Source: an uncultured bacterium (lineage in GTDB: Bacteria > Verrucomicrobiota > Lentisphaeria > Victivallales > UBA1829). From it: DNA of 64,000 nucleotides. The notes beneath the pieces were generated by a model. It had not been told where the DNA came from and ran no database searches. It worked only from the letters and a program-made list of their open reading frames with translations. Below, piece after piece: positions 38,205 to 54,308 of the stretch. The DNA lies in assembly GCA_949297765.1 (NCBI GenBank), contig CASFTV010000001.1, forward strand, positions 62,001 through 126,000, written 5' to 3'. Each line of letters opens with the position of its first letter. Position 1 is the stretch's first letter. A program made the position numbers and the translations under genes.

Positions 38205-41186
38205 ATGATGCGATTCGTTGTTCTGCTTGTTTTTATCGCATGTTCTCTTTCCGGAGCGGAGAATCTGTTTCGGAACAGCGATTTTTCCCGGAACAGGGAG
38301 GAGTGGATCTATGGTCAGTGGGGGAGGTTTGAGAAAGGGCGTTTTGTTGCACCGCTGGGGGAAATGACCTCGCGAGGAAAACTCCTCGGTCAGAAACTCA
38401 AGCTCAAAACCGATCATTTTTACCGGTTTCGCTGTCAGCTGAAGAACAGCAGGTCCGGGATACTCCGGATTTTTCTGCAGCAGACGACTCATCCGTATCC
38501 CTCTCTGGGACTGCGCCGGGATTTGACGCTCGCCCCGGGAACTCATTCTTTTGATATCGTCTTTCAGGCGGAGGAGGTGCCGCCGGGGAAGGAGGCGCAA
38601 TGGCTCTTCAGCTTTTCCGATCTGCCGGGCCGCAGTGAACTTTCCGGTCTGAAACTGGAGGAGTTGAAGACCCTTTCCTCTGCGATTCTTGCCCGCTCCT
38701 GGACGGTGCAGAAACTGACCCGTGTTCCGGAACGGATGGACCGCCTCCCGGATGGAAAACGTTCCTCCTGGAACCCCGGGAAGGGAGAACTGGTCCTCAA
38801 GCCGTTCCAGAGAGAGCGTTCTCTTGCGCTGATCTCCAACCGTTTCCAGTCGGCGGAGGAGGGGATTCTTCCGCTGGATTTCAGCGCGAACTGGTATTAT
38901 ACCGTCTATCTGAACGGGAAAGAGATCCGGCGCACGAGCGGGAAACGGTTGGAAACCTGTCTTCTCCCTGTCCGGAAAGGAGAAAATCTCCTGTGTGTTC
39001 TGGTGCGGGCCGGAGGAAATGGATGGAGTTTCGATGTCGGGGAGGCACGTCCTCCGCTCCGTTTCCGGGAGGGGAAGGATTGGAAAGCGTACCGGGCGTA
39101 TGGACCTTCTGTGCAGCCGGGAAGTGCGCTGGATCTTTCCGGAGAGATTCCGGTTCCCGCCGGTGCATCCGGTCCGCTTGTCGCGGGGAAAAACGGCAGT
39201 CTTGTGTTTGAAAACGCTCCGGAAAATCCGGTCCGTCTGCTGGGATTCAACGGGACCGATCTGTTCGATTCGCCTTTGTCCATTGCCGAATTCCGCGAAA
39301 AGGCAAAACGGTTTGCCCGGGAGGCCCGGCGGCAGGGATATCAGCTCTTCCGGGTGCATGGATATCTGGATCTGCTCTGCAAAGGCAGCGGTGCGGATAA
39401 GAAGATCAATCCCGAGATGCTCGAAAAATGGGACATCCTGCTTGCCGAACTGAAAAAGGAGGGGATCTATCTGCATCTGGTTCTGCTTTCCTTCGGGCTT
39501 TATTCCAATGATCCGGCCGCAAATTTCATAAACCGCGATCTTCACCGCCTGATGATGTATCTGGATGGCAAATGGGAGTATGAGCGTCTCCGTTTTGCCG
39601 CGGAGACTCTGTTCGGCCATGTCAATCCTGAAACCGGGATCGCATGGAAAGACGAACCGGCAATCGCGTTTGTCGAATATTACAATGAGCAGTCGCTCGG
39701 AATGGAGCGCGCTTCCATGGCGGTGAAACGGCATCCGGAGGCCCGCGCCGCTCTGAAACGGATGTTCGCCGAATGGCAGAAGAAAAACGGCGGAAAAGTC
39801 CTTGCGGAACTTCCGTTCGACCGTCAGGGGCCTGCCGCGAACGCCGCCGCGGAATTCTGGATGGAACGAGCCCGGAAATCCGCGGAACGCTGTGAAGCTA
39901 TTGTCCGGGATGCCGGATTCCGCCGGCTGGTGATTCCCTTCAGCTTTTCGAAACGGATCGGACATGCGGCCGCACGGTGGAGCACCGCGGATGTCGTAGA
40001 CTGCCATGCGTATTTCAACCATCCGACCGGGTCCCGGATCGCGTCCAACAGTTCGATTGAAAAAAAAGGCAATTACTGGAAGGAGAGCTGCAGTGTCCGT
40101 CTTCTGGGGCGCCCGATGAGCATCGGAGAGTACAATCACTGTTTCTGGAATCCATACCGCTATGAAATGGGGGCGCTGTTCGGCGGATACTCGGCGTTTC
40201 AGGGATTCGGAGCTCTGATGATCCATTGCAATCCGGTTCTTACCGGGGAGAACAGCGGCATTGTCAATGCGTTTACGGTGGCAACATCTCCGCTGGCCCG
40301 TGCCGCTCAGTTCCTGACCTTCTGTCTGTTCCAGCGTGGGGATGTGCGGCCGTCGCCGCATCAGACGGCCCTTGTGATTCCCGCCTCGTTCCTTGCGAAA
40401 AACCGGAATGCCGCCCGGGCCGTCCATCCGGCTCAGAGCGATATCGCCCTGCTGACGGGATTCGGACTGATTTTTCCGGATCTCCCGTCAAATCGGGAGT
40501 CGCCGACGGTGTCCCGGCCGGATTTCGCCTTCGCTCCGGACGGCGCCGCGGATATCCTTTCCACCGACTGGTTCTCCAGTGTGAACAGCGACTCCGCCGG
40601 GAAATTCAATGCGGATTCCGTTGTCCAGGCAATGAAGAAGAACGGAATCCTCCGCCCCTCCAACCGGAGCCGTCCTTCCAGAGGAATTTTCGAGAGCGAC
40701 ACGGAGGAACTGTTCCTTGACGCCGGACGCAAACTCCTGACCATTTCCACTCCGGGAACCGAAGCGGTCTGCACGCCGGCCGGTGAACAAGTCAGTCTGA
40801 GGGTTTTGAAGAATCTCGAACTTTCCGTTCCCGGGTGTGCGGCGCTCTGCTCGATCGACGGACGAAACCGCCTTGAGGAGAGCCGCCGCATGGTTCTGCT
40901 CTTCATGACCGAGGAGGCAAATTCGCACATGGTGCTTTCCGGCGATCATGAAGTCATGCGGATGCAGGGAAATCCGCCGGTTCTCTGCCGGACCGGAACG
41001 CTGAAGGCGGAGCTGATGCTGCGTGGAAAATGGAAGCTCCATGCGCTCGCTCCCGACGGATCGCGCGGAGAGGAACTGCCGCTGGAACAGACGGGAGAGA
41101 GTCTCCGGCTGAATCTGGATACGTCGGCTCTTCCCGGTGGGGCAACCGTCTTTTTCGAGCTGGTGAAGGAGGACTCCGCTTCCTGA
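38205..41186 (+). CDS. Secreted clan-A glycoside hydrolase with N-terminal CBM-like domain
   Basis: 993 residues, RBS GAGGAGGG, start ATGATG. Signal peptide MRFVVLLVFIACSLSGA. Residues 20-155 resemble a CBM4/9-type jelly roll (NLFRNSDFSRNREEWIYG). A second beta domain at about 225-290 has YYTVYLNGKEIRR. The clan-A barrel (about 335-680) has LFRVHGYLDLLCKG, AIAFVEYYNEQSLGM with probable acid/base Glu495, CHAYFNHPTG, and MSIGEYNHCFWNP with probable nucleophile Glu642. The order Asn-Glu then Glu fits GH5/GH39-like retaining enzymes. The GH family is not assigned. Exported enzyme of the AraC-linked cassette. Confidence 0.78.
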   Translation: MMRFVVLLVFIACSLSGAENLFRNSDFSRNREEWIYGQWGRFEKGRFVAPLGEMTSRGKLLGQKLKLKTDHFYRFRCQLKNSRSGILRIFLQQTTHPYPSLGLRRDLTLAPGTHSFDIVFQAEEVPPGKEAQWLFSFSDLPGRSELSGLKLEELKTLSSAILARSWTVQKLTRVPERMDRLPDGKRSSWNPGKGELVLKPFQRERSLALISNRFQSAEEGILPLDFSANWYYTVYLNGKEIRRTSGKRLETCLLPVRKGENLLCVLVRAGGNGWSFDVGEARPPLRFREGKDWKAYRAYGPSVQPGSALDLSGEIPVPAGASGPLVAGKNGSLVFENAPENPVRLLGFNGTDLFDSPLSIAEFREKAKRFAREARRQGYQLFRVHGYLDLLCKGSGADKKINPEMLEKWDILLAELKKEGIYLHLVLLSFGLYSNDPAANFINRDLHRLMMYLDGKWEYERLRFAAETLFGHVNPETGIAWKDEPAIAFVEYYNEQSLGMERASMAVKRHPEARAALKRMFAEWQKKNGGKVLAELPFDRQGPAANAAAEFWMERARKSAERCEAIVRDAGFRRLVIPFSFSKRIGHAAARWSTADVVDCHAYFNHPTGSRIASNSSIEKKGNYWKESCSVRLLGRPMSIGEYNHCFWNPYRYEMGALFGGYSAFQGFGALMIHCNPVLTGENSGIVNAFTVATSPLARAAQFLTFCLFQRGDVRPSPHQTALVIPASFLAKNRNAARAVHPAQSDIALLTGFGLIFPDLPSNRESPTVSRPDFAFAPDGAADILSTDWFSSVNSDSAGKFNADSVVQAMKKNGILRPSNRSRPSRGIFESDTEELFLDAGRKLLTISTPGTEAVCTPAGEQVSLRVLKNLELSVPGCAALCSIDGRNRLEESRRMVLLFMTEEANSHMVLSGDHEVMRMQGNPPVLCRTGTLKAELMLRGKWKLHALAPDGSRGEELPLEQTGESLRLNLDTSALPGGATVFFELVKEDSAS

Positions 41187-41194
41187 GCGGAGTC
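41172..41194. terminator. Hairpin between convergent operons, possible bidirectional terminator
   Basis: GACTCCGCT (41172-41180) pairs with AGCGGAGTC (41186-41194) across 5 bases. It overlaps the stop of the plus-strand glycosidase and lies 17 bases beyond the DUF4159 stop. No T tract. Confidence 0.35.
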
Positions 41195-41210: not shown

Positions 41211-41918
41211 TCAGTTGTACATGGAATAGACGTAGATGTTGGCGGCCATTTTCAGCGCAAAGGATCTCTGGCGCTGGGAGAAGTGGAAGCCGACCCATCC
41301 GCAGTGAAGGTCGCTGGAATTCATCAGGGCGACGAGGCGTCCTTTGTACCAGGCGCCCCAGAGTCCGTTGTTGATTCCCTGGAGATGGGCCCATTCGGTG
41401 ATGGTGTAGTAGGTGAAGAAGACGCCGTCGCTCATCGGGATTTTCCGCATTTCGATGCCCGGAAGGATTTCCCGGAGGAGGGTTTTGACGCTGTCGAAGA
41501 AGAGATCCTCCTTGATCTGACGGAGTGCCACGCAGTCGTCTACGAACAGAAAGCCGCCGCGGAGAATGTACTCCTTCAGATTGAGTTTCTGACGCATGGT
41601 CGCGTCGATTGCGCCTTTGCCGCTGAGAAAGAGAAGGGGAAAGTCGGTCATCTGGTCGAGACGGTCGATGTCGGCGATGTTCCATTCCAGCTTCATGTTC
41701 ATGGAGGTGTTCTTCCGGAGCCAGTCGACGATGATGACGTCGCCGCTCGGATGGTAGAACCAGCCGAGACTGTCTCCGCGCCGGTACCCCGTCGTCGGAA
41801 ATTTGAGTCTGGCCCAGGAGATGCGGCTGCCCCGCGCATTTTCAAAATTGTCCGCGGAATACAGCGGCGGAAGAACTGAAAGCGCAGAGAAAAGAACAAG
41901 AAGGATGACCGGTTTCAT
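41211..41918 (-). CDS. DUF4159-family exported protein
   Basis: 235 residues. Signal peptide KPVILLVLFSALSVLPPLYSA. The DUF4159 pattern is visible: RISWARLKFPTTG, DWLRKNTSMNMKLEW, FPLLFLSGKG, LRGGFLFVDDCVALRQIKED, and TITEWAHLQGINNGLWGAWY. The fold is thought to be a glutamine-amidotransferase-like Rossmann domain; the biochemical role is unknown. DUF4159 genes often sit near MoxR/DUF58 and transglutaminase-like genes. Here it is the last of three exported proteins and its ATG overlaps the stop of the transglutaminase gene. Confidence 0.82.
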   Translation of the reverse strand: MKPVILLVLFSALSVLPPLYSADNFENARGSRISWARLKFPTTGYRRGDSLGWFYHPSGDVIIVDWLRKNTSMNMKLEWNIADIDRLDQMTDFPLLFLSGKGAIDATMRQKLNLKEYILRGGFLFVDDCVALRQIKEDLFFDSVKTLLREILPGIEMRKIPMSDGVFFTYYTITEWAHLQGINNGLWGAWYKGRLVALMNSSDLHCGWVGFHFSQRQRSFALKMAANIYVYSMYN

Positions 41919-44278
41919 TTTCCGGATCCTCCGTTTGCGGCCGCGCGCAGAGAAATCCGCAGTTCATTCAGGGCTTTGCGGATCGCGGCATATTCTTCCG
42001 GTGCAATGGCGGCGGCGCCTCTGCCCGAGACAACCGCTTCGACAGTTCTGCCGTCCGAGTCAAGGCGCAGACGGACATGCTCCGTTTCGCGTTTCAGCGA
42101 ACATTTCCTGCCCGCGCATTCCACGCGGAGACGGAACTCCCAGTCGCGTCCGTCGAAGACTCTGCACGGCGACAGAATCCGCCGGGCGGAGAAGGGACGG
42201 AGAAGCTCTGTCGGAAGATCCGGCGCCGGAAGAGATTCTTTCGCATCTCCGGAGAGGTTCGCAAAAAGGGTGAACTCGGACTTTCCGCCGGCATCTCCCG
42301 CTGAAACCGTGACGTTTTCCAGTTCGGCCGCCGGAAGCACCGACTCCAGAACCGAAGCGAAAAAGTTTGTTTCCGTTTCCGGAAGGAGACGTTTCAGGCG
42401 GCTCCGGAACGTATAGTCGAACAACCCGGTGCAGCTGGTCCGGATTTCGATCCGGGAACCGTTTCGGCGGATTGTCCGTTCGAACCGCCCGGCGTCCTGC
42501 GCGGTCTTCACGGTCCGGAAGCGGACGCCCGGAGCGTCGAGGGAGAGGCCGAGCGTCCCGTGATCGCCGGGAGGAAGATCTCCGAATGGCGTAAGTCCGT
42601 CGGTCGCGTCGAGCCAGAGGTCGAGAGAGGGAAGATACACGATCATGTGGTTGAACTGCCAGGAGGGAAACTCCGGATCAATGCTCCCGCCGCGCCGGAC
42701 CAGCACCCGTTCCGCCCGGATGCCCGCCCGGGCGCACATCGCGACAAGTGCGGAGGCTTTGTCCTTGCAGTCGCCATAACGGTTGCGGATCACGTCCCCC
42801 GTGCTCTGGGGGCGGAACGCCGCCGCGCCGAGCGGGATGGTCACATAGCGCAGTCCGTTCAGAAAATCGTAAATCCGGCGGATTTTTTCCCGGTCGGTTC
42901 CCGCCCCTTTCAGCAGACGGTCGGTGAAACGTTCCGCATCGTTGTCGAGCGTCATGGCGCGGTCGGTCATCCGGCGTGCCCACGCAAGAAATTCCGTCCA
43001 CGAGGGGAGGGTGGTGATGACGATCCGGGGTGTTTCCCGGACAGCGGAGCGTTCCGGAATCAGCGGTGGAAGTTCCGGCGTTGTCAGATGGTACGTCTTG
43101 ATCCGGTAAAGTTCCGTCGCTCCGGAGGCCCGGAAGGTGTGCGCCGCAACCGGAAGTGATGTCTGAAGGGAGATGACCGCGTGAAATTCCGGAAGATGAC
43201 CGGTCGTCCGCAGGGTGCGGGAACTGGTGATTTCCAGAAGAGAGCCGGGCTGCGGCGTCGGGATCGGTCCGCGCTCGATGAGCAGAAACGTGCCGTCGGG
43301 ATGAATCAGCCGGGCGGGAACGGCCGTTTCATTCCGGGTGGGCGCAAAGCGTTCACTGCCGGCGGAGGTCCGGAAATAGATGGCGTCGCCGATCCGGATC
43401 TGGGCGGTCTTGTCGCCGTTCAGCACGGCTGTGATGTCGCGCTTCGTGTAGAAGGCCGGATAGACGCGATAGCGTTCCGCAAGTTTGCGGGCTTCGGCGA
43501 TCCTCTGTTTAGTTTCGTCGGTCGCCGGATGGAGGGTGCGTTTCCCGGAGGGGCGCGGCGGACGCGCAGCGGTGCGGGGCTTTTCCGCATTCCCGGAGTC
43601 CGCCGGTGAAACGGCGACCGTCCGCGGACGGGATGTGAATGGATGGGAGAGTTTTTCCTTTCCGTTGAAATACTGGGAATTCTCCGTGATGGCGAGTTTG
43701 TGCGATTCGTAAAACTGACGGGTCAGATCTCCGGCGCGCGTCAGATACTCCGGAAGCGCTTTCCCCGGACCAAGATCCTTCAGCGCCTGAAGAAAATAGA
43801 ACGGATAGCGCGGCGGATTGAGCTGACGGTCGGAATCGGTCGCCGAGACGAGAATCCGTCCCGGTGCGCGCAGCGCGTCAAGAAACGGCGCACTCATGGT
43901 GTTGAACAGGAAAACGGTTCCGCAGTTCCTCTTTCGGAGCAGTTCGTTCAGAGCGGATGCCGTGAGCCGACCGCCCCGCATGGAGAGCGTGACCCGCCGT
44001 CCGTTCGCGGAGCCGTGGCCGAACAGAAAAAGATCCACAGATTCCCGGTCCTTTTCTTCCGCGAGACGGGTAAATTCCGTTTTCACCTCGTCGAGGGTCC
44101 GGCAGATCCGCACTTCGGCGTTCCGATGTGTTTCATACCATCGGCCCAGCTCCGTCCGGCAGTGTTCGATTTCCTGTTCGAGTTCCGGCGATCCCGCCCG
44201 GCCGAGGATAAACAGAACCGCCGGTTTCGCCTCAAGAATGCAGGACGCAAGAAAAAGCAGCGCAATCCGGAGCAGCAT
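41915..44278 (-). CDS. Exported fusion: degenerate caspase/C13-like domain plus transglutaminase
   Basis: 787 residues. Signal peptide LLRIALLFLASCILEA. Residues 20-215 look like a caspase/legumain-type fold: DLFLFGHGSANGRR with the His (about 88), then a strand VFLFNTMSAPF where a DxCxSG-like motif would carry the Cys; here the Cys is missing. A Pro/Arg-rich linker (216-260) follows. The C-terminal half is a transglutaminase-like domain with Cys504 (NRYGDCKDKASALVAM), His544 (FNHMIVYLP) and Asp557 (LWLDATDG), so it may be active as a peptidase or cross-linker. Flanking beta regions resemble DUF3857. It lies 2 bases after the 1643-residue gene. Confidence 0.75.
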   Translation of the reverse strand: MLLRIALLFLASCILEAKPAVLFILGRAGSPELEQEIEHCRTELGRWYETHRNAEVRICRTLDEVKTEFTRLAEEKDRESVDLFLFGHGSANGRRVTLSMRGGRLTASALNELLRKRNCGTVFLFNTMSAPFLDALRAPGRILVSATDSDRQLNPPRYPFYFLQALKDLGPGKALPEYLTRAGDLTRQFYESHKLAITENSQYFNGKEKLSHPFTSRPRTVAVSPADSGNAEKPRTAARPPRPSGKRTLHPATDETKQRIAEARKLAERYRVYPAFYTKRDITAVLNGDKTAQIRIGDAIYFRTSAGSERFAPTRNETAVPARLIHPDGTFLLIERGPIPTPQPGSLLEITSSRTLRTTGHLPEFHAVISLQTSLPVAAHTFRASGATELYRIKTYHLTTPELPPLIPERSAVRETPRIVITTLPSWTEFLAWARRMTDRAMTLDNDAERFTDRLLKGAGTDREKIRRIYDFLNGLRYVTIPLGAAAFRPQSTGDVIRNRYGDCKDKASALVAMCARAGIRAERVLVRRGGSIDPEFPSWQFNHMIVYLPSLDLWLDATDGLTPFGDLPPGDHGTLGLSLDAPGVRFRTVKTAQDAGRFERTIRRNGSRIEIRTSCTGLFDYTFRSRLKRLLPETETNFFASVLESVLPAAELENVTVSAGDAGGKSEFTLFANLSGDAKESLPAPDLPTELLRPFSARRILSPCRVFDGRDWEFRLRVECAGRKCSLKRETEHVRLRLDSDGRTVEAVVSGRGAAAIAPEEYAAIRKALNELRISLRAAANGGSGK

Positions 44279-44280
44279 CG

Positions 44281-47200
44281 TTATTTCTTCTCCTTTTCCG
44301 TCGTTTCCGGGAAGACCGTTTCAAATGCAGCGACGGCGCCGGGGGAAAACTCTTTGCCGGAGCGGACTCGTTTGCGGTAGTCGGGAGTGACAAGATCCGT
44401 GTACTCCTTCAGAATCTCAAGATTGGTTTTGTCGTCGACATGCAGCACATATTCGAGCAGGTACGGAAAAATGTTCCGGGCGTCTTTTTCCGTGAGGACC
44501 GGGAAGGTTTCCAGCGAGTTGACCGCCAGAGGAGAGACCAGCTTCCGGAATTCGGCTTTGGAAAGAGTGTTCTTGAACGAAAGTCCCTCTTTGAGCAGCT
44601 GGAGATACGCGGCGGGCGCCTGCTCCGGATTGTTCCGGGTCCGCCGGTTCAGCGCACGGACTTTCCCCGAATAGAGAACGGTCAGGAATTTCGGATCGTC
44701 AAAAACTCCGGGGAACTCTTTGCGGAGATCGTCGATGTTCAGCTGGGCGGCGATCGGACGGATCAGGCGGATCAGCTCCTGTTTCATCGTGTCCGGGAGC
44801 GGTTTTTTCTGCCGGCAGAGATCGCGGGCTTCCGTAAAGAGAACACCCGTTTTCCAGACCGGATTCTTCGGATCCTTCTTCCGGGCGGAGCGGAGCTGTT
44901 CCGCAAGAGCGCCGGTGCAGAAGTTCCGGGTGTGCCAGAGAATCTGGAAGGTCTGGCGCTCGTCAAGCCGGCCGGGATAGATCTCCTGCAGTTCGTTCAG
45001 AAGAGCGAAAAGATCCGGATTCTTCTCTCCCCGGAGTCCGTTGACTGCAAAGCGTCCGAGAGAGGAAAGAGGGAGGTTACGCGGACTGCGGTAGCCGCAT
45101 TTGTGCAGAAGACGCGCCATTTTCAGCGAACGGGTGAAATACGGCACAGAACAGTTTTCCAGCGTAATGCCGATCCCCTCATTGTCGGAAAGCTGTTTCA
45201 TGTGGCGCAGAAGCCGTTCCGCCATGACGGGATCGCTGTTCAGGATTCGCTCCGCATGACGGAACACCCGGTTCATTTCCCCCCATGCGTTGCTGTTCCG
45301 GAGTGTTTTCCGGCTGAGAAATTCCAGAATTTGCTGATTGTCGATGGTTTCAAACCGTTTCTTCATGCCCATTTCCGGCGCACCGGCAAAGTCGGAATCG
45401 GTCAGAAGATGGTTGGAAAGGTTCAGAAGTATTGTCAGGATTTCCTGTTTGCGTGCTTCGGGAAGGGCGTTCCACTCCTCCTTGCGGCGGATCAGGATTT
45501 TTGCCAGATCCTCCACCCGTCTGTTGATCGGAAGAAGATAGATGGCGATGTCCATTCCGAAGGTCCGCTTGTTTTCCGGAAGCGCCTGGAGCTGCTTCAG
45601 AAGAGCCTGTCGGGTTGCCTGGGTGAGAAGACGTTCAAACGGCGTGCATTCCGGAAGAAGCCGGAAGTCGGTCATTGTGCCGAAGACGGGGGTCCCGGAA
45701 AACACCTCGAACGGATTATCCACCTCAAGCATGAGATAGGGACGATGAAGAACGTTTTCCGGTTCCGTCGCGCAGGCGCGCAGAAGTGCCCGGCGGAACT
45801 TCGGATCCCTGCGCGAATATTCCGTCAGCAAATTCCGGAGTTCGTGATGAACGTAGGAAACGCTGCCGCGGAAGTTGCCGTACGAATCGACGATATCCGG
45901 ATTCTGTTTCCGCAGATTGCGTCCCGCACGCAGGAGTTCCTGCATCAGCATTTCCGGATCCATGGAGCGCAGATAGCGTTTCAGATCCTGAAGCAGAAGG
46001 CTGGAGGAGCCGGACTGATAGAGCGAGAGCACTTCCCCGAGATCCAGTATGATCTTCCGTTCCCCCGCGATCAGCAGGAGTTCGCTGAGGCGCAGATTCT
46101 TTTCTCCCGGTTCCAGATTCCGGAGCGCGGCCGGTTCCTTTGCAAACTCCGTTTCCGGGAGGTTTGCCAGACGATCCCATTCCTTCATCCGTTTTTCGAA
46201 TCCCAGTTTCTGAAGAAGCGGACGCATCGTTCCGGGATCCCTCCGGTACTCCTTCAGGAAAAAGCTGCTGTAAAAAAGCTGAAGATAAGGGTCCTCGAGC
46301 GGCATATAGCGTGCGATCAGTCCTTGCCGCAGGGATTTCGGCAGCGGCTCGGAATGTTCCATGCTGAAACGGAGTGCTTCTGCCCGGGCGCTGTATTCAA
46401 GATTCGGATTTTTCAGCGCGGAGTCCAGAATCTCCAGCAGAAGGGCGTTGCACCGTTTCTGCAGGGCGGGATCCGGCGCCGGGTTCTGGGAATATTGATC
46501 CTCCCGGAGCTTCCCCGTCAGGAAGTAGTACTGGCTTGCGGTCAGGTCCGGCAGATTCCGGAAAAAGTATTCGACCACCCGGAATGCCCCTTCGCGATCC
46601 CGTGCGGGAATGGCGAAATTCCAGAGTTCCACGGGCGCATCCTTCAGATTCTTCAGCAGAGCCGGATCCGCACTTTTCCGCAGCGCGCAGAGTTTCGCGG
46701 AGGCGATGCGGTTGTGGGGGTCGCGTTTCAGAATTTCCGCATAGGCTTTTTCCGCCTCGGCCGGATTTTTCAGGAGAAAGTCGTAGAGGACGGCGATCAG
46801 GAGCGGATCGCTGTTTTCCTGCTTGAGTTCCCGGACGGCCTGCTCCAGCGCTTCGCGGGTTTGCGGATTCCCGAACCAGTGAAGGGATTGCGGAACGCGT
46901 CCTCTTGCCAGAAGAAGAGGCATGGCGTTTTCCAGACACTCTTTCAGACAGCGGATTGCCTCCTTCCTGTTCTTTTTGAAATGTCCGGCAAACGATCGGT
47001 TCAGATAGTCCATGCCGGGGAAGGGGGGCTGTTCCGGATACTTTCTCCTGAGTGCGGCAAGCTGCTGGTCCGGAAGGTGCTGCGCCAGCGTTTGAATCAA
47101 TTTGTTCCGGCCGCCCGGAAGCGTTGAGAAAAGATAGTCTGCGATTCCGGGATCTCCCAGATTCCTCTTCTGCATGCTGTGTTTCAGCAGAAGCACAGCC

Positions 47201-49212
47201 GCAAACTGGCGGTGCAGAACCGGAGCATCGGTCCGGACGAAGAGATGGCGCGCGACCCGTTCCACTCCCTGCCAGTCGGAAAAAGAAAGATGAAAGGCCG
47301 CAAGATTGAGCAGTTCGGCGGAGCTTTTCCGATCCAGGGAGGAATCCAGTTTGGCGAGCAGTTCTCTGGCTTCCGCCTTCCGTTCGCACTGGAGGGCAAG
47401 CCAGATTTTCAGCGGCACCGGAAGATCCTGTCGGCTGACCGCGTTCCAGATTGCACTGGGATCCGGTTTTTCCCCTCCGCGGCGCTGGGAAAACACCACC
47501 TGGAGCGGCTGGAGATCTCCGATTCCGGCCAGTACCCGGGGAAGAGCCTGCTGAGACCGCGGATTGAACAGATCAAGAACGGCGGCCGTGGAATAGGGGA
47601 GAGAATAGCTGGAATGAAGAAGATTCCCGTCCAAATAAAGTCCGTCTCTTTCCGGGAAGTCCGCACAGAACAGGGCATATTCCCGGAACATGACATCATA
47701 GTCCCTCCGTTTCGAGAAGGTGTTGTAGTAACTGTAAAGCATCCACTGGTACTGGCCCGGTTCTGCCTCGTACTCCGACGACATCGTTTTCAGAACATTT
47801 CTCATGCTTCGGGCGACAATCGGCTGAAGTTCCGGTGGAAATTTCATGAAATAGGAGGTATAGGTCGGTTCAAAGAATTTCAGAAGGCTTTCCAGAGCTT
47901 TCCTGCGTCGTTCCAGCGGGACAGCCTGCATCGTGCAGTATCGGCTGAGAACCTGCGGATGAAAGAGTTCTCTCTGTTCCTGCGCCTTCAGGATCCGCTC
48001 CATTTCCGGAATGGAAAGATCATCATTCACCCGGAGATTCTGAAGATAGAAAACAAGTTCGCCGGTTTCCGGAAGTCCGTTTTCCAGTTTTTTGCGGATG
48101 CGCGCCAGATTCTGTTCTTTCCGTGCCACTGCCAGAAAAAGCTCCGGTGCCGGCCAGTTGTTCCGCCGAAGCGTTTCCACAATCTTCTCCTGCTCCTTCG
48201 GAGAGCTTTTCAGATAATATTCCAGGATTCCCGCAGACAGAAAACGCGATTGGAAGAGCTGGCGCTGGAGCGGAGGAAACAGATCCGGAATCGGAAGAAT
48301 GGGAGGCTGCATGAGAACTTGGAGAGCGATTTTGTTGAAATTCCGGACCACGCTGCCGTTTCTCCGTCGCGGCAGACGGTTGAGCTGAGCCAGAAAAGTC
48401 GAACGGAAGGTGACGGGCGTGAGTTTTTGGATTTCCAGCAGTCCGTTCCGGTCCAGCAGTTCAAAGCCCTCCTTTTCCCGATGAAGCAGAAAGAGGAGAA
48501 TGGCTTCCAGTTCACAGACTGCCTTTGTCCGTTTTTTGCTTTTCCGGAGCACCCGGAGCGCCTCGTCGGGCTGGTTCAAAGAGAACAGAAGCTCTCCGAG
48601 AATCTGAAAATCCCTGTCCGTGGAAAAGCGCTTTTCCGCCTCCCGGATCCGCTGGAGCGTCCGGTCGGTCTGCAGAATCTGCTGCTCGTAGAGCGCAAGT
48701 GCCTGAAGATTGACGGCGGTCGGTTCCCGCCGGTATGCTTCTTCAAGGAATTCCCCGGCTTTCTTCCCGAGGTTTTTCCGCATCAGCACGATTCCGGCTG
48801 TCCGCAGCAGCGTTGCGGAAGGAAGGTCCGCAATCCGGAGCGTATAGAGATACGGATCTTCCGTTTCCCCGTTTTCCTGAATCAGGGAAAGATGCAGAAG
48901 ACGGTAGAGCGGATTCTCCGGTTCGGTTCGGGAAAGTTCGTAAAACGCAAACTGCAGATAATTCTGAAAGACGGGCGACAGATACGTTCTCTGCCCGGAA
49001 AACAGCTGAAGACGGGCTTCATCATCGGGCTGCTGTTCCATCAGGCGTTTCAGTTTCCGGGTGAATTCCTCTTTGCTTCCCGGATTCCGGCGGATCGTTT
49101 TCAGTTCCGTTTCCCGCTTCTGCGTTTCCGCTGAATAGCTGTCCGGGATGGAGACGACGGGCAGAGCGCCCGTCAGAACACCACAGAGCAGTGCCGTGCA
49201 GAGTCTCTTCAT
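44281..49212 (-). CDS. Giant exported helical-repeat (TPR-like) protein
   Basis: 1643 residues. Signal peptide CTALLCGVLTGALPVVSI. Almost entirely alpha-helical with loosely TPR-like pairs, for example AGIVLMRKNLGKKAGEFLEE, DFQILGELLFSLNQPDEALR and LLIAVLYDFLLKNPAEAEKA. No enzyme motif, coiled-coil run or C-terminal anchor is apparent; the end is charged (VFPETTEKEKK). Such solenoids usually hold protein complexes together. First gene of the three-gene operon with the caspase-like/transglutaminase fusion and DUF4159, and preceded by a near-consensus promoter. Specific function unknown. Confidence 0.8.
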   Translation of the reverse strand: MKRLCTALLCGVLTGALPVVSIPDSYSAETQKRETELKTIRRNPGSKEEFTRKLKRLMEQQPDDEARLQLFSGQRTYLSPVFQNYLQFAFYELSRTEPENPLYRLLHLSLIQENGETEDPYLYTLRIADLPSATLLRTAGIVLMRKNLGKKAGEFLEEAYRREPTAVNLQALALYEQQILQTDRTLQRIREAEKRFSTDRDFQILGELLFSLNQPDEALRVLRKSKKRTKAVCELEAILLFLLHREKEGFELLDRNGLLEIQKLTPVTFRSTFLAQLNRLPRRRNGSVVRNFNKIALQVLMQPPILPIPDLFPPLQRQLFQSRFLSAGILEYYLKSSPKEQEKIVETLRRNNWPAPELFLAVARKEQNLARIRKKLENGLPETGELVFYLQNLRVNDDLSIPEMERILKAQEQRELFHPQVLSRYCTMQAVPLERRRKALESLLKFFEPTYTSYFMKFPPELQPIVARSMRNVLKTMSSEYEAEPGQYQWMLYSYYNTFSKRRDYDVMFREYALFCADFPERDGLYLDGNLLHSSYSLPYSTAAVLDLFNPRSQQALPRVLAGIGDLQPLQVVFSQRRGGEKPDPSAIWNAVSRQDLPVPLKIWLALQCERKAEARELLAKLDSSLDRKSSAELLNLAAFHLSFSDWQGVERVARHLFVRTDAPVLHRQFAAVLLLKHSMQKRNLGDPGIADYLFSTLPGGRNKLIQTLAQHLPDQQLAALRRKYPEQPPFPGMDYLNRSFAGHFKKNRKEAIRCLKECLENAMPLLLARGRVPQSLHWFGNPQTREALEQAVRELKQENSDPLLIAVLYDFLLKNPAEAEKAYAEILKRDPHNRIASAKLCALRKSADPALLKNLKDAPVELWNFAIPARDREGAFRVVEYFFRNLPDLTASQYYFLTGKLREDQYSQNPAPDPALQKRCNALLLEILDSALKNPNLEYSARAEALRFSMEHSEPLPKSLRQGLIARYMPLEDPYLQLFYSSFFLKEYRRDPGTMRPLLQKLGFEKRMKEWDRLANLPETEFAKEPAALRNLEPGEKNLRLSELLLIAGERKIILDLGEVLSLYQSGSSSLLLQDLKRYLRSMDPEMLMQELLRAGRNLRKQNPDIVDSYGNFRGSVSYVHHELRNLLTEYSRRDPKFRRALLRACATEPENVLHRPYLMLEVDNPFEVFSGTPVFGTMTDFRLLPECTPFERLLTQATRQALLKQLQALPENKRTFGMDIAIYLLPINRRVEDLAKILIRRKEEWNALPEARKQEILTILLNLSNHLLTDSDFAGAPEMGMKKRFETIDNQQILEFLSRKTLRNSNAWGEMNRVFRHAERILNSDPVMAERLLRHMKQLSDNEGIGITLENCSVPYFTRSLKMARLLHKCGYRSPRNLPLSSLGRFAVNGLRGEKNPDLFALLNELQEIYPGRLDERQTFQILWHTRNFCTGALAEQLRSARKKDPKNPVWKTGVLFTEARDLCRQKKPLPDTMKQELIRLIRPIAAQLNIDDLRKEFPGVFDDPKFLTVLYSGKVRALNRRTRNNPEQAPAAYLQLLKEGLSFKNTLSKAEFRKLVSPLAVNSLETFPVLTEKDARNIFPYLLEYVLHVDDKTNLEILKEYTDLVTPDYRKRVRSGKEFSPGAVAAFETVFPETTEKEKK

Positions 49213-49244: not shown

Positions 49245-49273
49245 ATAATAGCTCCAGCCGCGGCGCTTGTCAA
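49245..49273 (-). promoter_or_regulatory. Strong promoter of the three-gene exported-protein operon
   Basis: Minus strand: perfect TTGACA (49268-49273), 17-base spacer, TATTAT (49245-49250), 32 bases before the 1643-residue gene. RBS AAAGGA follows. Confidence 0.7.
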
Positions 49274-49285
49274 ATACGGATGGAA

Positions 49286-49942
49286 TTATTCCGCAAGAAA
49301 ATCGCCGACGCTCATCACGCGGAATCCGTTCTCCTTCAGATGCACCATGTATTCCGTGAAGCGCGGAAAGTTCGTGTTGACCCACGGATGGACCAGATCC
49401 GGAACGCCGTGGAAGACCAGGCAGACCGCCTCATCCCCCTCCGCCCGGGCGACCGTGTCGTAAAACAGATGCGGATTCTCCCCCTGAACGGGAAACGACG
49501 GCAGATTCATCCAGTCGTCCCTCCGCTTGTTGAAGGTCCTCTGCTCCGTGGACCGGGCCGAGAGAAATCCCCGCGACGCAAGATGCGCAACGGCATTCCC
49601 CGCATACGGTCCTCCCGGATAGGCGAAAGTCCGCGGCTTCGGAATGCCCGCACGGATCAGGAAGCTGTCCAGCTCGTCCACCTCGCGGAGAACGGTCTCC
49701 CCGTCGCATCGGCGCAGATCGGGGTGGTTCCAGGTGTGATTTCCGATTTCAAATCCCGCGTCCGAAAGCGCCTTCAGCTGTTCCGCGGAAAGCAGAGCGC
49801 GTGAATGCGCGGTTCCCCACGCTTCCGGGAAACGGCAGATATAGAACGTCGCCCCGAACCCGAGACGGAGAAGGAGCGGCGCCACCAGATGATACTGACT
49901 GGTCACCGCGTCGTCGAAGGTCAGAAGAATCGTCTTTTCCAT
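49286..49942 (-). CDS. Cytosolic CE4/NodB-type deacetylase
   Basis: 218 residues, no signal peptide. NodB motifs: motif 1 LLTFDDAVTSQYH (Asp pair, residues about 9-10), motif 2 IGNHTWNHPDL (zinc His, H-x3-H), motif 3-like TFAYPGGPYAG, and late CLVFHGVPD. CE4 enzymes deacetylate peptidoglycan, chitin or small N-acetylated compounds. It lies 3 bases after nspC in the polyamine operon, and its cytosolic location argues against a wall substrate. A role on an acylated polyamine or sugar precursor is only a possibility. Confidence 0.82.
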   Translation of the reverse strand: MEKTILLTFDDAVTSQYHLVAPLLLRLGFGATFYICRFPEAWGTAHSRALLSAEQLKALSDAGFEIGNHTWNHPDLRRCDGETVLREVDELDSFLIRAGIPKPRTFAYPGGPYAGNAVAHLASRGFLSARSTEQRTFNKRRDDWMNLPSFPVQGENPHLFYDTVARAEGDEAVCLVFHGVPDLVHPWVNTNFPRFTEYMVHLKENGFRVMSVGDFLAE

Positions 49943-49945
49943 GCT

Positions 49946-51091
49946 TCAGGAAAGCCTCGTCTTGAAATCGCTGTAGCTGAAGCGGCGCACGACGCGGTAT
50001 TCCTTCGTCTTCGGGTCCCAGGTCGCAATGGAGGGAAGTTTGAGTCCGTTGAAGGTGTTGGTTTTGACCATCGTATAGTGCGCCATATCGCAGAAAATGA
50101 GCTTGTCGCCGGGCCGGAGCGGTTTGTCGAACGAATAGTCTCCGATGACGTCCCCCGCAAGACACGACGGACCCGCCAGACGGTACCGGTACGGCTTTTC
50201 CTCCGGCTGTCCCGCGCCGATCACGTTCGGCCGGTAGGGCATCTCCAGCACATCCGGCATGTGGGTTGCCGCGGAAACGTCCAGAATCGCAATGTCGATT
50301 CCGTTGCGGACCGTGTCCAGCACCGTTCCCACCAGATATCCCGTGTTCAGCGCCACCGCCTCTCCCGGTTCCAGATAGACCTCTGTTCCATACTTCTCCC
50401 GGAAGTTCCGGATCAGACGGCAGAGAAGATCCAGATCGTAATCCGGACGGGTGATGTGGTGTCCTCCGCCGAAATTGATCCATTTCATGCGGCAGATAAG
50501 ATCGCCGAATTTCTCCTCGAAGGCCGCAAGCGTCCGTTCCAGCGAATCGGCATTCTTTTCGCAGAGGGTGTGGAAGTGAAGACCGGAAAACGGCGAAAGA
50601 TCGTGTCCGGCGAAGTCGCTCCGGAGAATTCCCAGACGCGATCCCGGCGCACACGGATCGTAGATTGCCGTATCCGCCTCCGAATGTTCCGGATTCACCC
50701 GCAGCCCGAACTGCACCCGGTTCGCATACCGCATCGCCAGCGGACGGAAACGCTCCCACTGCGAGAACGAGTTGAACACAATATGATCGCAGATCGGCAG
50801 AAGCTCCCGCAGATCCTGTTCGGAATAGGCCGCCGCGAACGCATGGACCTCTCCGGGGAAACTCTCCCGTCCGAGTCGGGCTTCGTGCGGAGAACTGGCG
50901 CAGGTCCCGCAAAGGACCTTCGCCAGCAGCGGATAGACGCTGAACATGGAAAACGCCTTCTGCGCAAGCAGAATCCGTGCTCCGGTCTTTTTCTGCACGT
51001 CGTCCAGAATCGTCAGATTGCGGCGGAGAAGATGCAGATCGACAACGAAACTCGGAGTTTCAATCGAATTCAGCGGCAGTCCGGCGTTCAT
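49946..51091 (-). CDS. nspC: Carboxynorspermidine/carboxyspermidine decarboxylase
   Basis: 381 residues from ATG 51091, which overlaps the dehydrogenase stop as ATGA; an ATG 21 bases earlier is possible. Fold III PLP decarboxylase: TPSFVVDLHLLRRNL, Schiff-base Lys45 in ILLAQKAFSMF, SPHEARLGRESFPGEVHAFA, GLRVNPEHSE, SGLHFHTLCE, WINFGGGHHIT, and the C-terminal CDMAHYTMVKTNTFNG. It converts carboxyspermidine or carboxynorspermidine to spermidine or norspermidine. With the upstream dehydrogenase and speA it forms the alternative polyamine route that avoids decarboxylated SAM. Confidence 0.94.
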   Translation of the reverse strand: MNAGLPLNSIETPSFVVDLHLLRRNLTILDDVQKKTGARILLAQKAFSMFSVYPLLAKVLCGTCASSPHEARLGRESFPGEVHAFAAAYSEQDLRELLPICDHIVFNSFSQWERFRPLAMRYANRVQFGLRVNPEHSEADTAIYDPCAPGSRLGILRSDFAGHDLSPFSGLHFHTLCEKNADSLERTLAAFEEKFGDLICRMKWINFGGGHHITRPDYDLDLLCRLIRNFREKYGTEVYLEPGEAVALNTGYLVGTVLDTVRNGIDIAILDVSAATHMPDVLEMPYRPNVIGAGQPEEKPYRYRLAGPSCLAGDVIGDYSFDKPLRPGDKLIFCDMAHYTMVKTNTFNGLKLPSIATWDPKTKEYRVVRRFSYSDFKTRLS

Positions 51092-52278
51092 TCGGAAAAG
51101 ACTTCCTTCCACGGCAGACCGTACTCATTGAGCTTCGCCATGAACGGATCGGGATCGAACTGCTCCATGTTGAAGACGCCCGCGCCATTCCATGTTCCGG
51201 TGGCGACCATCATTGCGCCGATCATCGCCGGAACGCCGGTCGTATAGGAGACCGCCTGCGACTGAACCTCCCGGTAGCATTCCTGATGATCGCAGACATT
51301 GTAGACATAATAGGTCCGCGGCTTTCCATCCTTCGTCCCCTTGATGAGACAGCCGATGCAGGTCTTGCCGACCGTTTTCGGCCCGAGCGTGGCGGGATCG
51401 GGCAGCAGTTTCTTCAGGAACTGCAGCGGAACGATCTCCTTCCCCTCGTACATCACCGGCTCGATTCCGGTCATGCCGACATTCTGCAGCACTTCCAGAT
51501 GCTTCAGATAGTTGTCGGAGAACGTCATCCAGAACCGCGCCTCCTTCAGTCCCTTCTTCTGAAGGAACGGAACGAGGGATTCCAGCTCCTCATGCCACAG
51601 CAGATAGATCTTTTTCGGTCCGATTCCGGCCGGGAAGTCGTAAACTTTGGAAAACTCCATCGGTTTGGTCTCGACGAATCCGGTTTTTTCGGTCCAGTAC
51701 TTGCCCGGCGAGGTGACTTCGCGGATGTTGATTTCCGGATTGAAATTGGTGGCGAACGGATGTCCGTTGTCGGCGGCGTTCGCGTCGATGATGTCGAGCG
51801 TCTCGATCGTGTCGAAATGGTGTTTTGCGGCGTAGGCGCAGTAGACGTTGGTCACGCCGGGATCGAATCCGGATCCGAGAAGCGCCATGATCCCCTTCTC
51901 CTTGAAGCGGTCATGGTACGCCCACTGCCAGCTGTATTCAAAATGCGCCTCGTCGAGGGGTTCGTAGTTCGCGGAATCCACATAGTTCACGCCGGTTTCC
52001 AGACAGGCGTCCATGATGTGCAGGTCCTGATAGGGAAGGGCAAGGTTGAGGACCACGTCCGGCTGGAAATCCCGGATCAGCGAGACCAGCTGGGGGACAT
52101 TGTCCGCATCCACCTGTTCGGTCCGGATCGGCCGGGAGAGCTGCGCGGCGATTGCGTCGCATTTCGATTTTGTCCGGCTCGCAAGGCAGATTTCCGAAAA
52201 AACGTCCGAGGCCTGCGCGCACTTGTGGACCGCCACCCCGCTGACGCCGCCGGCGCCGATGATTAAGACTTTCGCCAT
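51088..52278 (-). CDS. Carboxynorspermidine/carboxyspermidine dehydrogenase (saccharopine dehydrogenase family)
   Basis: 396 residues from ATG 52278, giving the family start MAKVLIIGAGGVSGVAVHKC (Rossmann GxGGVG-like). Other hallmarks are ICLASRTKSKCDAIAAQL, VVLNLALPYQDLHIMDACLE, GVNYVDSANYEP and LLGSGFDPGVTNVYCAYAAKHH. NADPH-dependent reductive coupling of aspartate semialdehyde with putrescine or diaminopropane gives the carboxylated triamine that NspC then decarboxylates. The saccharopine reductase label is the usual mis-annotation for this enzyme; the neighbours speA and nspC support the polyamine role. Confidence 0.9.
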   Translation of the reverse strand: MAKVLIIGAGGVSGVAVHKCAQASDVFSEICLASRTKSKCDAIAAQLSRPIRTEQVDADNVPQLVSLIRDFQPDVVLNLALPYQDLHIMDACLETGVNYVDSANYEPLDEAHFEYSWQWAYHDRFKEKGIMALLGSGFDPGVTNVYCAYAAKHHFDTIETLDIIDANAADNGHPFATNFNPEINIREVTSPGKYWTEKTGFVETKPMEFSKVYDFPAGIGPKKIYLLWHEELESLVPFLQKKGLKEARFWMTFSDNYLKHLEVLQNVGMTGIEPVMYEGKEIVPLQFLKKLLPDPATLGPKTVGKTCIGCLIKGTKDGKPRTYYVYNVCDHQECYREVQSQAVSYTTGVPAMIGAMMVATGTWNGAGVFNMEQFDPDPFMAKLNEYGLPWKEVFSE

Positions 52279-52300
52279 GATAGTTTCCCTTTCCTTCGGT

Positions 52301-54223
52301 TTAGCGTTCGAAATATGTGTAGCCGCGAAGACCGTCTTCATACGCGGCCATAATCGTTCTGCGTTCCGCCGGAGTGATCCGGTTTTCCCGGACCGCCCGT
52401 TCCGCCTTGTCGCGGAAACTGCCGATCAGGGTTTTCGGATCATACTCCACATAGGAGAGCACGTCGGAGACGGAATCGCCTTCGATCTCCTTGACGATCT
52501 CGAAGCGGCCGTCCTCCCGGGAGATGTTCACGCTGACCACATTGGTGTCGCCGAGCAGATTGTGCAGGTCGCCGAGCGTCTCCTGATAGGCGCCCACCAG
52601 AAACACCGCAAGATAGTACTCCTCATCTTCCCGGAGTTCGTGGAGGGGGAGGGTGTGACGTTCGTCGTGCAGATCGACAAACTTGTCGATCTTGCCGTCG
52701 CAGTCGCAGGTGATGTCCGAGAGAATCCCCTGCCGCGAGGGCATCTCCTTGAGGCGGTGAATTGGCATGATCGGAAACACCTGGTCGATCGCCCAGGTGT
52801 CGGGCAGCGACTGGAACACGCTGATGTTCGCATAGTAGATATCCGCCAGCGCCGTATCGAGTCCTTCAAATTCGTCCGGGACATATTTGAGCTTCTTGAC
52901 CTCCCGGTGCACCGCCGCCATGATATTCCAGAACGCGCTTTCCGCCGTTGCCCGTTCCCGGAAGGAGATGCGTCCGTTCTTGAACAGAATCCGGATTTCG
53001 TCCCGGTAGTAGATCGCGTCGTGAAAGCACTCCTGAAGGTTCTTCGGGGAGATATGGTTCAGAATCGCCACCAGATCTTTCGTGTGCTCGTTTGCATTCT
53101 CCTTGAGCGGCGGGATCTTGGCCGATTCAAATTTGGTCGCGTCGAGGATGTTGAACAGCAGTACGGAGTAGTAGGCCACGGTCGCCCGGCCCGATTCGGA
53201 GATGATCGTCGGATGGGCGATGTCCTTTGCCGTCAGGATTTCCGATACGGTTTCCACCACGTCCACGCAGTATTCGTCCAGCGAGTAGTTGCGGCTCAGG
53301 TTGAAGTTCGTGTGGGAGCCGTCGTAATCGACCGCCAGTCCGCCGCCCAGATCGAGATATCCCATCGTCGCGCCCTCTTCCACGAGTCCGCAGTAGATCC
53401 GCGAGGCTTCGATGATCCCGTTCCGGATGTCGCGGATGTTCGGAATCTGCGAGCCGATATGGTAGTGCAGAAGTTTGACGCAGTCGAGCATCCCGGCCTC
53501 GCGGAACGCATCCACCGCGGTAATCAGCTCCGCCGTGTTGAGGCCGAAGACGCTCCGGTCGCCGCCGGATTCGGTCCACTGTCCGCCCGCCCGGGTCGAA
53601 AGTTTCATCCGCAGTCCGATGTTCGGACGGATTCCGAGCTGGCGGCTCCGTTCGATGATCGCCTGTACTTCGCCCGGCATCTCCACCACGAGAAAACACT
53701 GAATGCCGATTTTCGTGGCATAAAGGGCGAGATCAATGAATTCGTCATCCTTGTATCCGTTGCAGATGAGGCAGGATTCCGGATCCCGCAGATTCGCAAT
53801 CGCCGCCAGAAGTTCCGGTTTGCTGCCGGCTTCGAGTCCGTGATGGAGGTCGCAGCCGAATTTTGCGATCTCCTCCACCACCTGCTGCTGCTGATTGACC
53901 TTGATCGGATAGACCCCTTTGTAGACCCCTTTGTATCCGGTCTGCTCAATGGCCTTTGCAAAGCTCTGGTGGAGCAGACGGATCTGGGAGTTGAGAATGT
54001 TCCCGATCCGCAGGAGCACCGGCATATCCATTCCGCGCTCCTTGACTCCCCGGACGATGTCCATCAGACTCACGGAGGGGGAGCCCGGTTCACGGAACGG
54101 GGTCACGGCCACTTCGCCGTCGTTGTTGACTGTGAAATAACCGGCACCCCAGTTGTTGATCCCGTAGAGGTCTGCGGAATCCCGAACGGACCACCGTTCC
54201 AGCGTTTCTCTGCGAATGTTCAT
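52301..54223 (-). CDS. speA: Biosynthetic arginine decarboxylase
   Basis: 640 residues from ATG 54223 (start MNIRRETLERWSVRDSADLY; AGGA 7 bases upstream). PLP Lys108 in GVYPIKVNQQQQVVEEIA. Further motifs are HHGLEAGSKPELLAA, RSVFGLNTAEL, LLHYHIGSQIPNI, LDLGGGLAVDYDG, and the Cys-containing TCDCDGKID segment near 490 that shapes the active site. It makes agmatine from arginine, the entry to putrescine. Agmatine-processing enzymes are not in this window. First gene of the polyamine operon, 22 bases ahead of the dehydrogenase. Confidence 0.95.
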   Translation of the reverse strand: MNIRRETLERWSVRDSADLYGINNWGAGYFTVNNDGEVAVTPFREPGSPSVSLMDIVRGVKERGMDMPVLLRIGNILNSQIRLLHQSFAKAIEQTGYKGVYKGVYPIKVNQQQQVVEEIAKFGCDLHHGLEAGSKPELLAAIANLRDPESCLICNGYKDDEFIDLALYATKIGIQCFLVVEMPGEVQAIIERSRQLGIRPNIGLRMKLSTRAGGQWTESGGDRSVFGLNTAELITAVDAFREAGMLDCVKLLHYHIGSQIPNIRDIRNGIIEASRIYCGLVEEGATMGYLDLGGGLAVDYDGSHTNFNLSRNYSLDEYCVDVVETVSEILTAKDIAHPTIISESGRATVAYYSVLLFNILDATKFESAKIPPLKENANEHTKDLVAILNHISPKNLQECFHDAIYYRDEIRILFKNGRISFRERATAESAFWNIMAAVHREVKKLKYVPDEFEGLDTALADIYYANISVFQSLPDTWAIDQVFPIMPIHRLKEMPSRQGILSDITCDCDGKIDKFVDLHDERHTLPLHELREDEEYYLAVFLVGAYQETLGDLHNLLGDTNVVSVNISREDGRFEIVKEIEGDSVSDVLSYVEYDPKTLIGSFRDKAERAVRENRITPAERRTIMAAYEDGLRGYTYFER

Positions 54224-54275
54224 TTCCCGATCCTGTCCATCTTCTTTTTCGATCCTGAAAAAACAAAAGTTCAGA

Positions 54276-54288
54276 TGTATAATATACA
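54276..54288. promoter_or_regulatory. Palindrome over the speA -10 region
   Basis: TGTATAATATACA is a perfect 13-base odd palindrome (arms TGTATA/TATACA) that covers the -10 hexamer of the speA promoter. It could be a repressor site or simply an AT-rich -10 region. Confidence 0.35.
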
Positions 54289-54308
54289 AAAAAATTTCCT
54301 TTTTTCAA
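54281..54308 (-). promoter_or_regulatory. Promoter of the polyamine operon
   Basis: Minus strand: TTGAAA (54303-54308), 16-base spacer, TATATT (54281-54286), about 58 bases before the speA start. Confidence 0.5.

Follow-up and report, generated by a model that had tools for sequence, protein, structure and literature searches.

A three-gene locus in a Victivallales bacterium is probably the secreted half of a MoxR-driven envelope machine with eight genes, split between two contigs

Results

Gene layout of the locus

The window, that is, the whole stretch of 64,000 nucleotides analyzed here (G000:C1:62001-126000), belongs to a genome of 4.23 Mb in 92 contigs that is 98.4% complete, with a contamination of 0.42%. 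Three genes are arrayed in tandem on its minus strand; P0001 (44281–49212), coding for a predicted exported TPR-type helical repeat protein of 1643 residues, P0002 (41915–44278), coding for a predicted exported protein of 787 residues with a probable pseudo-caspase domain, a DUF3857-like part, and a transglutaminase, and P0003 (41211–41918), coding for a predicted exported DUF4159 protein of 235 residues. P0001 and P0002 are separated by a 2-base gap, and P0002 and P0003 overlap by 4 bases, exactly as the original prediction described three open reading frames of these lengths. The N-termini of all three proteins are hydrophobic and signal-like by the Kyte–Doolittle measure, in agreement with the signal peptides proposed for them. 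The site TTGACA-17-TATTAT that had been noticed ahead of the trio is present at 49273–49245 on the minus strand, with 11 of 12 consensus matches, and is the best promoter-like match in 13.5 kb. It is a pattern match only; the scan returned 9 sites against 2.9 ± 1.6 in shuffled sequences, the promoter and terminator scans lie little above chance, and we regard the motif as suggestive only.

Directly upstream of the trio, a minus-strand run (49286–54289) resembles a polyamine-biosynthesis operon; its genes, named from reading the sequence, are arginine decarboxylase-like, carboxynorspermidine dehydrogenase-like, and decarboxylase-like, followed by a polysaccharide-deacetylase-like gene ending 73 bases before P0001. 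A short perfect inverted repeat, GACTCCGCTcaggaAGCGGAGTC, without a T run (41172–41194) is located between the end of the trio and that of a convergent plus-strand ORF (38205–41186), and is possibly a terminator shared by both.

Domain composition of the three proteins

P0002 matches the Pfam family Transglut_core with 32.8 bits (cut-off 23; E = 9.1e-8), and DUF3857 exceeds its cut-off in one P0002 relative. In the predicted structure (pLDDT 85.9), residues 269–784 align with PDB 3kd4 (Z 18.7 over 423 residues), and residues 14–208 align with caspase-6 and legumain by VIA-align (Z about 17, rmsd 2.4–2.9 Å over 175–186 residues). Independently of these fold matches, the family profile finds 3kd4 at E 8e-27 and metacaspase-4 at E 3e-5. 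The caspase/legumain-fold domain spans about residues 19–210 (43649–44224, minus strand) and the transglutaminase core about residues 451–600 (42479–42928, minus strand), the latter carrying the triad C504, H544, and D557, which is conserved in all 39 of the 39 sequences aligned, a set in which some loci are represented twice. The transglutaminase-type Cys-His-Asp site is thus apparently intact, consistent with the possibly active transglutaminase of the original prediction. The fusion of a caspase-like to a transglutaminase domain, also predicted, stands as far as the caspase fold is concerned but not for a complete His-Cys dyad; the dyad His is found in most family sequences, including the window copy, whereas a conserved catalytic Cys is absent from the expected caspase position across the 39 aligned sequences, and shifting the alignment by one column reveals a Cys in only a few. 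This lack of a conserved Cys suggests that the caspase-like domain is probably a pseudo-peptidase. The suggested role in protein cross-linking is only putative; 3kd4, the nearest relative with a solved structure for the transglutaminase half, is labelled a putative protease. Most of the transglutaminase matches of about 1200–2000 residues in the phylum cover the DUF3857/transglutaminase part only, and were excluded from the full-length P0002 relatives. The window copy of P0002 also has a lipobox-like LASC at residues 10–13 (44242–44278), absent from its relatives, so that it might be a lipoprotein here.

P0003 was correctly recognized as a DUF4159 protein, its Pfam match (PF13709, 82.4 bits, E = 4.1e-23) being well above the curated cut-off of 25.9. 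Its AlphaFold model (pLDDT 86.7) is closest to PDB 4i66 (TM 0.68/0.79), a protein that the family profile also finds by sequence (E = 1.8e-15), and the next-best folds, glutamine-amidotransferase and ThuA-like, are weak. Asp, His, and Cys residues are retained in DUF4159 (D127, D128, C129, D203, H205, and C206). Several DUF4159 relatives (L037 3040–3789, L041 257–1123, and L038 13410–14228) begin with a Tat-like twin-arginine motif (e.g., TRRNFMK), whereas the window protein has a Sec-like start; the motif hints that these relatives may be exported in a folded form, perhaps with a bound cofactor.

The TPR matches to P0001 fall below the Pfam cut-off (best 20.6 bits vs 27; E = 4.5e-4); judged from them, P0001 is a divergent TPR-type helical repeat protein that resembles TPR repeats only. 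Its relatives occur in 5 of 61 genomes, stand-alone homologues of about 1800 residues occur in genus g3, and it lies beside P0002 only in the window genome and in one congener (G001), where the homologue is directly upstream of P0002. No P0001-like gene was found upstream of P0002 in 15 of the 16 inspected loci other than those of the G001 type. On both of these counts P0001 was ruled out as a core member; it is a lineage-specific extra, and the giant helical scaffold that had been predicted as part of the system is not kept with P0002 and DUF4159 beyond these two genomes.

An eight-gene MoxR cluster in relatives

The first clue to a larger system came from the open reading frames around the relatives of P0003 and P0002, where MoxR, DUF58, and BatA-type genes are found in the same run. 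A survey of 80 named genome loci with HMMs built from these families revealed a constant cluster of P0002, MoxR, DUF58, BatA, X1, X2, Y, and DUF4159 (X1, X2, and Y being labels coined here), its order and content recurring in about 30 loci. The carriers are Lentisphaerota MAGs, Lentisphaerae bacterium WC36 (a complete chromosome), and several members of the Verrucomicrobiota, including Spartobacteria, Puniceicoccaceae, Methylacidiphilaceae, and Limisphaerales. Some Lentisphaerota show a permuted order in which Y, DUF4159, or both precede P0002, and in Verrucomicrobiota X2 is sometimes undetected and DUF4159 sometimes lies beyond the fetched stretch. Of the 25 loci where a full-length P0002 gene has flanks long enough for the test, 24 have MoxR in the cluster, and the exception (L125) carries a short form. 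P0002 and DUF4159 are therefore regular members of an eight-gene cluster in Lentisphaerota and Verrucomicrobiota, and the expectation that the genes of the trio stay together in relatives holds for these two and fails for the TPR gene.

As for the other members, the DUF58 protein has a DxSxS MIDAS-type motif and no transmembrane segment, BatA has DxSxS in 11 of 11 sequences, X1 has three transmembrane segments, X2 has a hydrophobic N-terminus in most cases, and Y combines a GATase1-like stretch with transmembrane segments and, mostly, a DxSxS motif. In a set of 194 good genomes from the phylum, the genomes with full-length P0002 and those with close DUF4159 are the same nine (G000, G036, G040, G052, G056, G096, G098, G125, and G175), with the MoxR cluster in all nine; the cut was set post hoc, at a gap that is large for P0002 (641 to 249 bits) and modest for DUF4159 (246 to 222), and no probability is attached to the co-occurrence because the genomes are related.

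Separation of the two halves in the window genome

P0002, DUF4159, and P0001 are each present once in the window genome, and all three copies lie in the window on contig C1. The other six genes are on contig C12 (L089) in the order MoxR-DUF58-BatA-X1-X2-Y, where MoxR matches AAA_3 with 207 bits, the adjacent DUF58 gene scores 133.5 bits in an order conserved in relatives, and BatA matches PF07584 with 55 bits and TIGR02226, an N-terminal double-transmembrane domain, with 58 bits. By BLAST, the MoxR, DUF58, BatA, X2, and Y proteins of C12 are most similar to those of congeners G001 and G003. G001 has all of the genes in one contiguous set, at the far end of which DUF4159 is convergent. In a MoxR tree made by a quick method, the C12 MoxR groups with those of G001, G003, and one Victivallaceae MAG with a support of 99; this set falls within the P0002-linked clade, apart from the other MoxRs of the same genome. 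From the contiguous set in G001 and this tree, it is most likely that a rearrangement separated the secreted-protein genes from the motor and membrane genes, and with the halves unlinked, their joint expression is not assured. The identity between G000 and G001 is 75% for DUF4159 and 70% for MoxR, 36% for X2, 33% for P0002, and about 30% (partial matches) for P0001; given this fast divergence of P0002 within the genus, its role in the window genome could have shifted.

Discussion

The three genes were originally proposed as a system complete in themselves, which they are not; P0002 and DUF4159 form the secreted part of a cluster built around MoxR, DUF58, and BatA, and its six other genes are found on another contig. 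The trio probably belongs to an envelope machine of eight genes that is powered by MoxR, of which it would be the secreted half, the gene set having become split in this genome. In the arrangement predicted from sequence, MoxR, an AAA+ ATPase, and the DUF58 protein would reside in the cytoplasm, BatA and Y would lie in the membrane, their DxSxS motifs flanked by transmembrane segments, X1 would be a further membrane protein, and X2, P0002, DUF4159, and P0001 would be exported, with the transglutaminase and pseudo-caspase arm in the periplasm. The envelope location proposed earlier agrees with this arrangement. The ATP cycles of MoxR would, via the vWA proteins, remodel or mature an envelope substrate, the pseudo-caspase domain of P0002 may bind the target, and its transglutaminase-type Cys-His-Asp site may then cleave or acyl-transfer that target, with DUF4159 serving as a partner of GATase1-like fold and P0001 as a lineage-specific docking scaffold. 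The motor half is credible because pairs of MoxR and vWA proteins are established machines for remodelling a target or inserting a metal (PMC9976466, PMC13036017). The complete chain would be a previously undescribed trans-envelope machine. From the cytoplasm, the MoxR motor would drive an exported transglutaminase-type enzyme through membrane vWA proteins, and the pseudo-caspase would steer this enzyme toward the maturation or cross-linking of one specific envelope protein. This reading is put forward only tentatively, as a possible and somewhat doubtful extension.

Four other explanations were weighed against that of a split envelope machine. The unlinked loci and the rapid change of P0002 and P0001 between congeners would also be expected if the trio had been re-purposed after the split, with a new function independent of the C12 genes; we consider this unlikely, since in congener G001 the same two fast-diverged proteins, P0001 and P0002, are still encoded next to MoxR in a linked set, and both halves are intact in the window genome with the catalytic triad kept. 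Decidedly improbable is a stand-alone three-gene envelope system, composed of the solenoid, transglutaminase, and DUF4159 proteins and working without MoxR and BatA, in view of the location of P0002 and DUF4159 inside the MoxR cluster in relatives, the retention of the six other genes in this genome, and the irregular company of the TPR gene, even though the trio is tightly packed behind its own promoter-like site and unlinked to MoxR here. There is very little to be said for the split being an assembly or binning artefact of a truly contiguous cluster; the genome is indeed a 92-contig draft, but each piece is far from the ends of a long contig (413 kb and 118 kb), the two are similar in G+C and tetranucleotide make-up, the contamination is low (0.42%), and the gene order differs from that of G001 as well, DUF4159 directly following P0002 in the window. 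Least credible is a MoxR-vWA conflict (anti-invader) system of the type reported in PMC7159879, where P0002 would act as an effector or a regulator; this reading has in its favor the MoxR and vWA chassis, the occurrence of caspase- and transglutaminase-superfamily domains in such systems as well, and a weak match of the C12 MoxR to bpMoxR (29.5 bits vs cut-off 27), and against it the far higher AAA_3 score of that protein, the absence of any PADLOC match on the eight proteins, their predicted export or membrane location, a cluster content that is constant instead of hypervariable, and a caspase-like domain that is probably a pseudo-enzyme.

The split envelope machine is worth comparing with known systems. 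The Bat clusters (PMC3557215) share with the present one MoxR, DUF58, a BatA-type protein that carries DxSxS and has two transmembrane segments at its N-terminus, a second membrane vWA-type protein (Y in the present case), and a TPR protein (here in this genus), whereas the present cluster adds P0002, DUF4159, X1, and X2, and its TPR gene is lineage-specific only. A BatD model gave no match on BatA, X1, X2, or Y at E 0.1, one representative of each being searched, so that a distant BatD could escape. A role in aerotolerance or oxidative stress is not to be assumed, since it is not supported even for the bat genes of Leptospira biflexa, the deletion of which gave no oxidative-stress phenotype (PMC3557215). 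NorQ/NorD and other MoxR AAA+/VWA pairs (PMC9976466, PMC13036017) also join a MoxR ATPase to vWA partners for target remodelling, whereas the present cluster has vWA-type motifs in three proteins, two of which are predicted membrane proteins, and adds an enzyme arm that would be exported. BDI_1141 (3kd4) shares the DUF3857-transglutaminase fold with P0002, which differs in its N-terminal caspase-fold domain and complete Cys-His-Asp triad; 3kd4 has no Cys at the nucleophile position in the profile alignment. Orthocaspases and pseudo-orthocaspases (PMC6426788), metacaspases, and legumain have the same clan CD fold, with altered catalytic residues in the pseudo-variants as in P0002. Unlike them, P0002 appears to be exported and is fused to a DUF3857-transglutaminase part, its Cys lost and its His mostly kept. 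Hoch_4089 (4i66), a DUF4159 protein, matches P0003 in sequence and fold, P0003 differing in being a separate, predicted exported protein within a cluster.

The original prediction knew of no named system with this content, and provisionally this stands; PADLOC finds nothing on the eight cluster proteins, NCBIfam gives the two-anchor domain and unrelated AAA+ names only and no system name, and in the open-access literature no paper was found on DUF4159, alone or with MoxR, and for MoxR, DUF58, and transglutaminase together the papers found concern other systems. The chassis is known from Bat-type MoxR clusters, whereas the fixed complement of P0002, DUF4159, X1, X2, and Y is provisionally new in the open-access literature, subscription papers being outside this scope. 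The function of MoxR-DUF58-BatA clusters is a long-standing question, for which C504 of P0002 offers a catalytic handle on what the machine acts on, and the window genome indicates that the genes for the secreted proteins can become separated from those of the motor without the loss of either half.

Looser DUF4159 relatives are partly found in sister clusters without P0002. In G002, of the same genus, such a cluster (L186 8148–15509) encodes one protein with two DUF4159 domains together with MoxR, DUF58, BatA, and Y, and long DUF4159-like ORFs akin to that of G002 occur in several genomes of the family. Two variant clusters (L038 2458–15536 and L040 4250–18156) contain two MoxR genes, DUF58, BatA, Y, and DUF4159 (in two copies in L040), and also encode a separate, predicted exported caspase-like protein without a transglutaminase, in which the Cys position is occupied by Ser or Thr.
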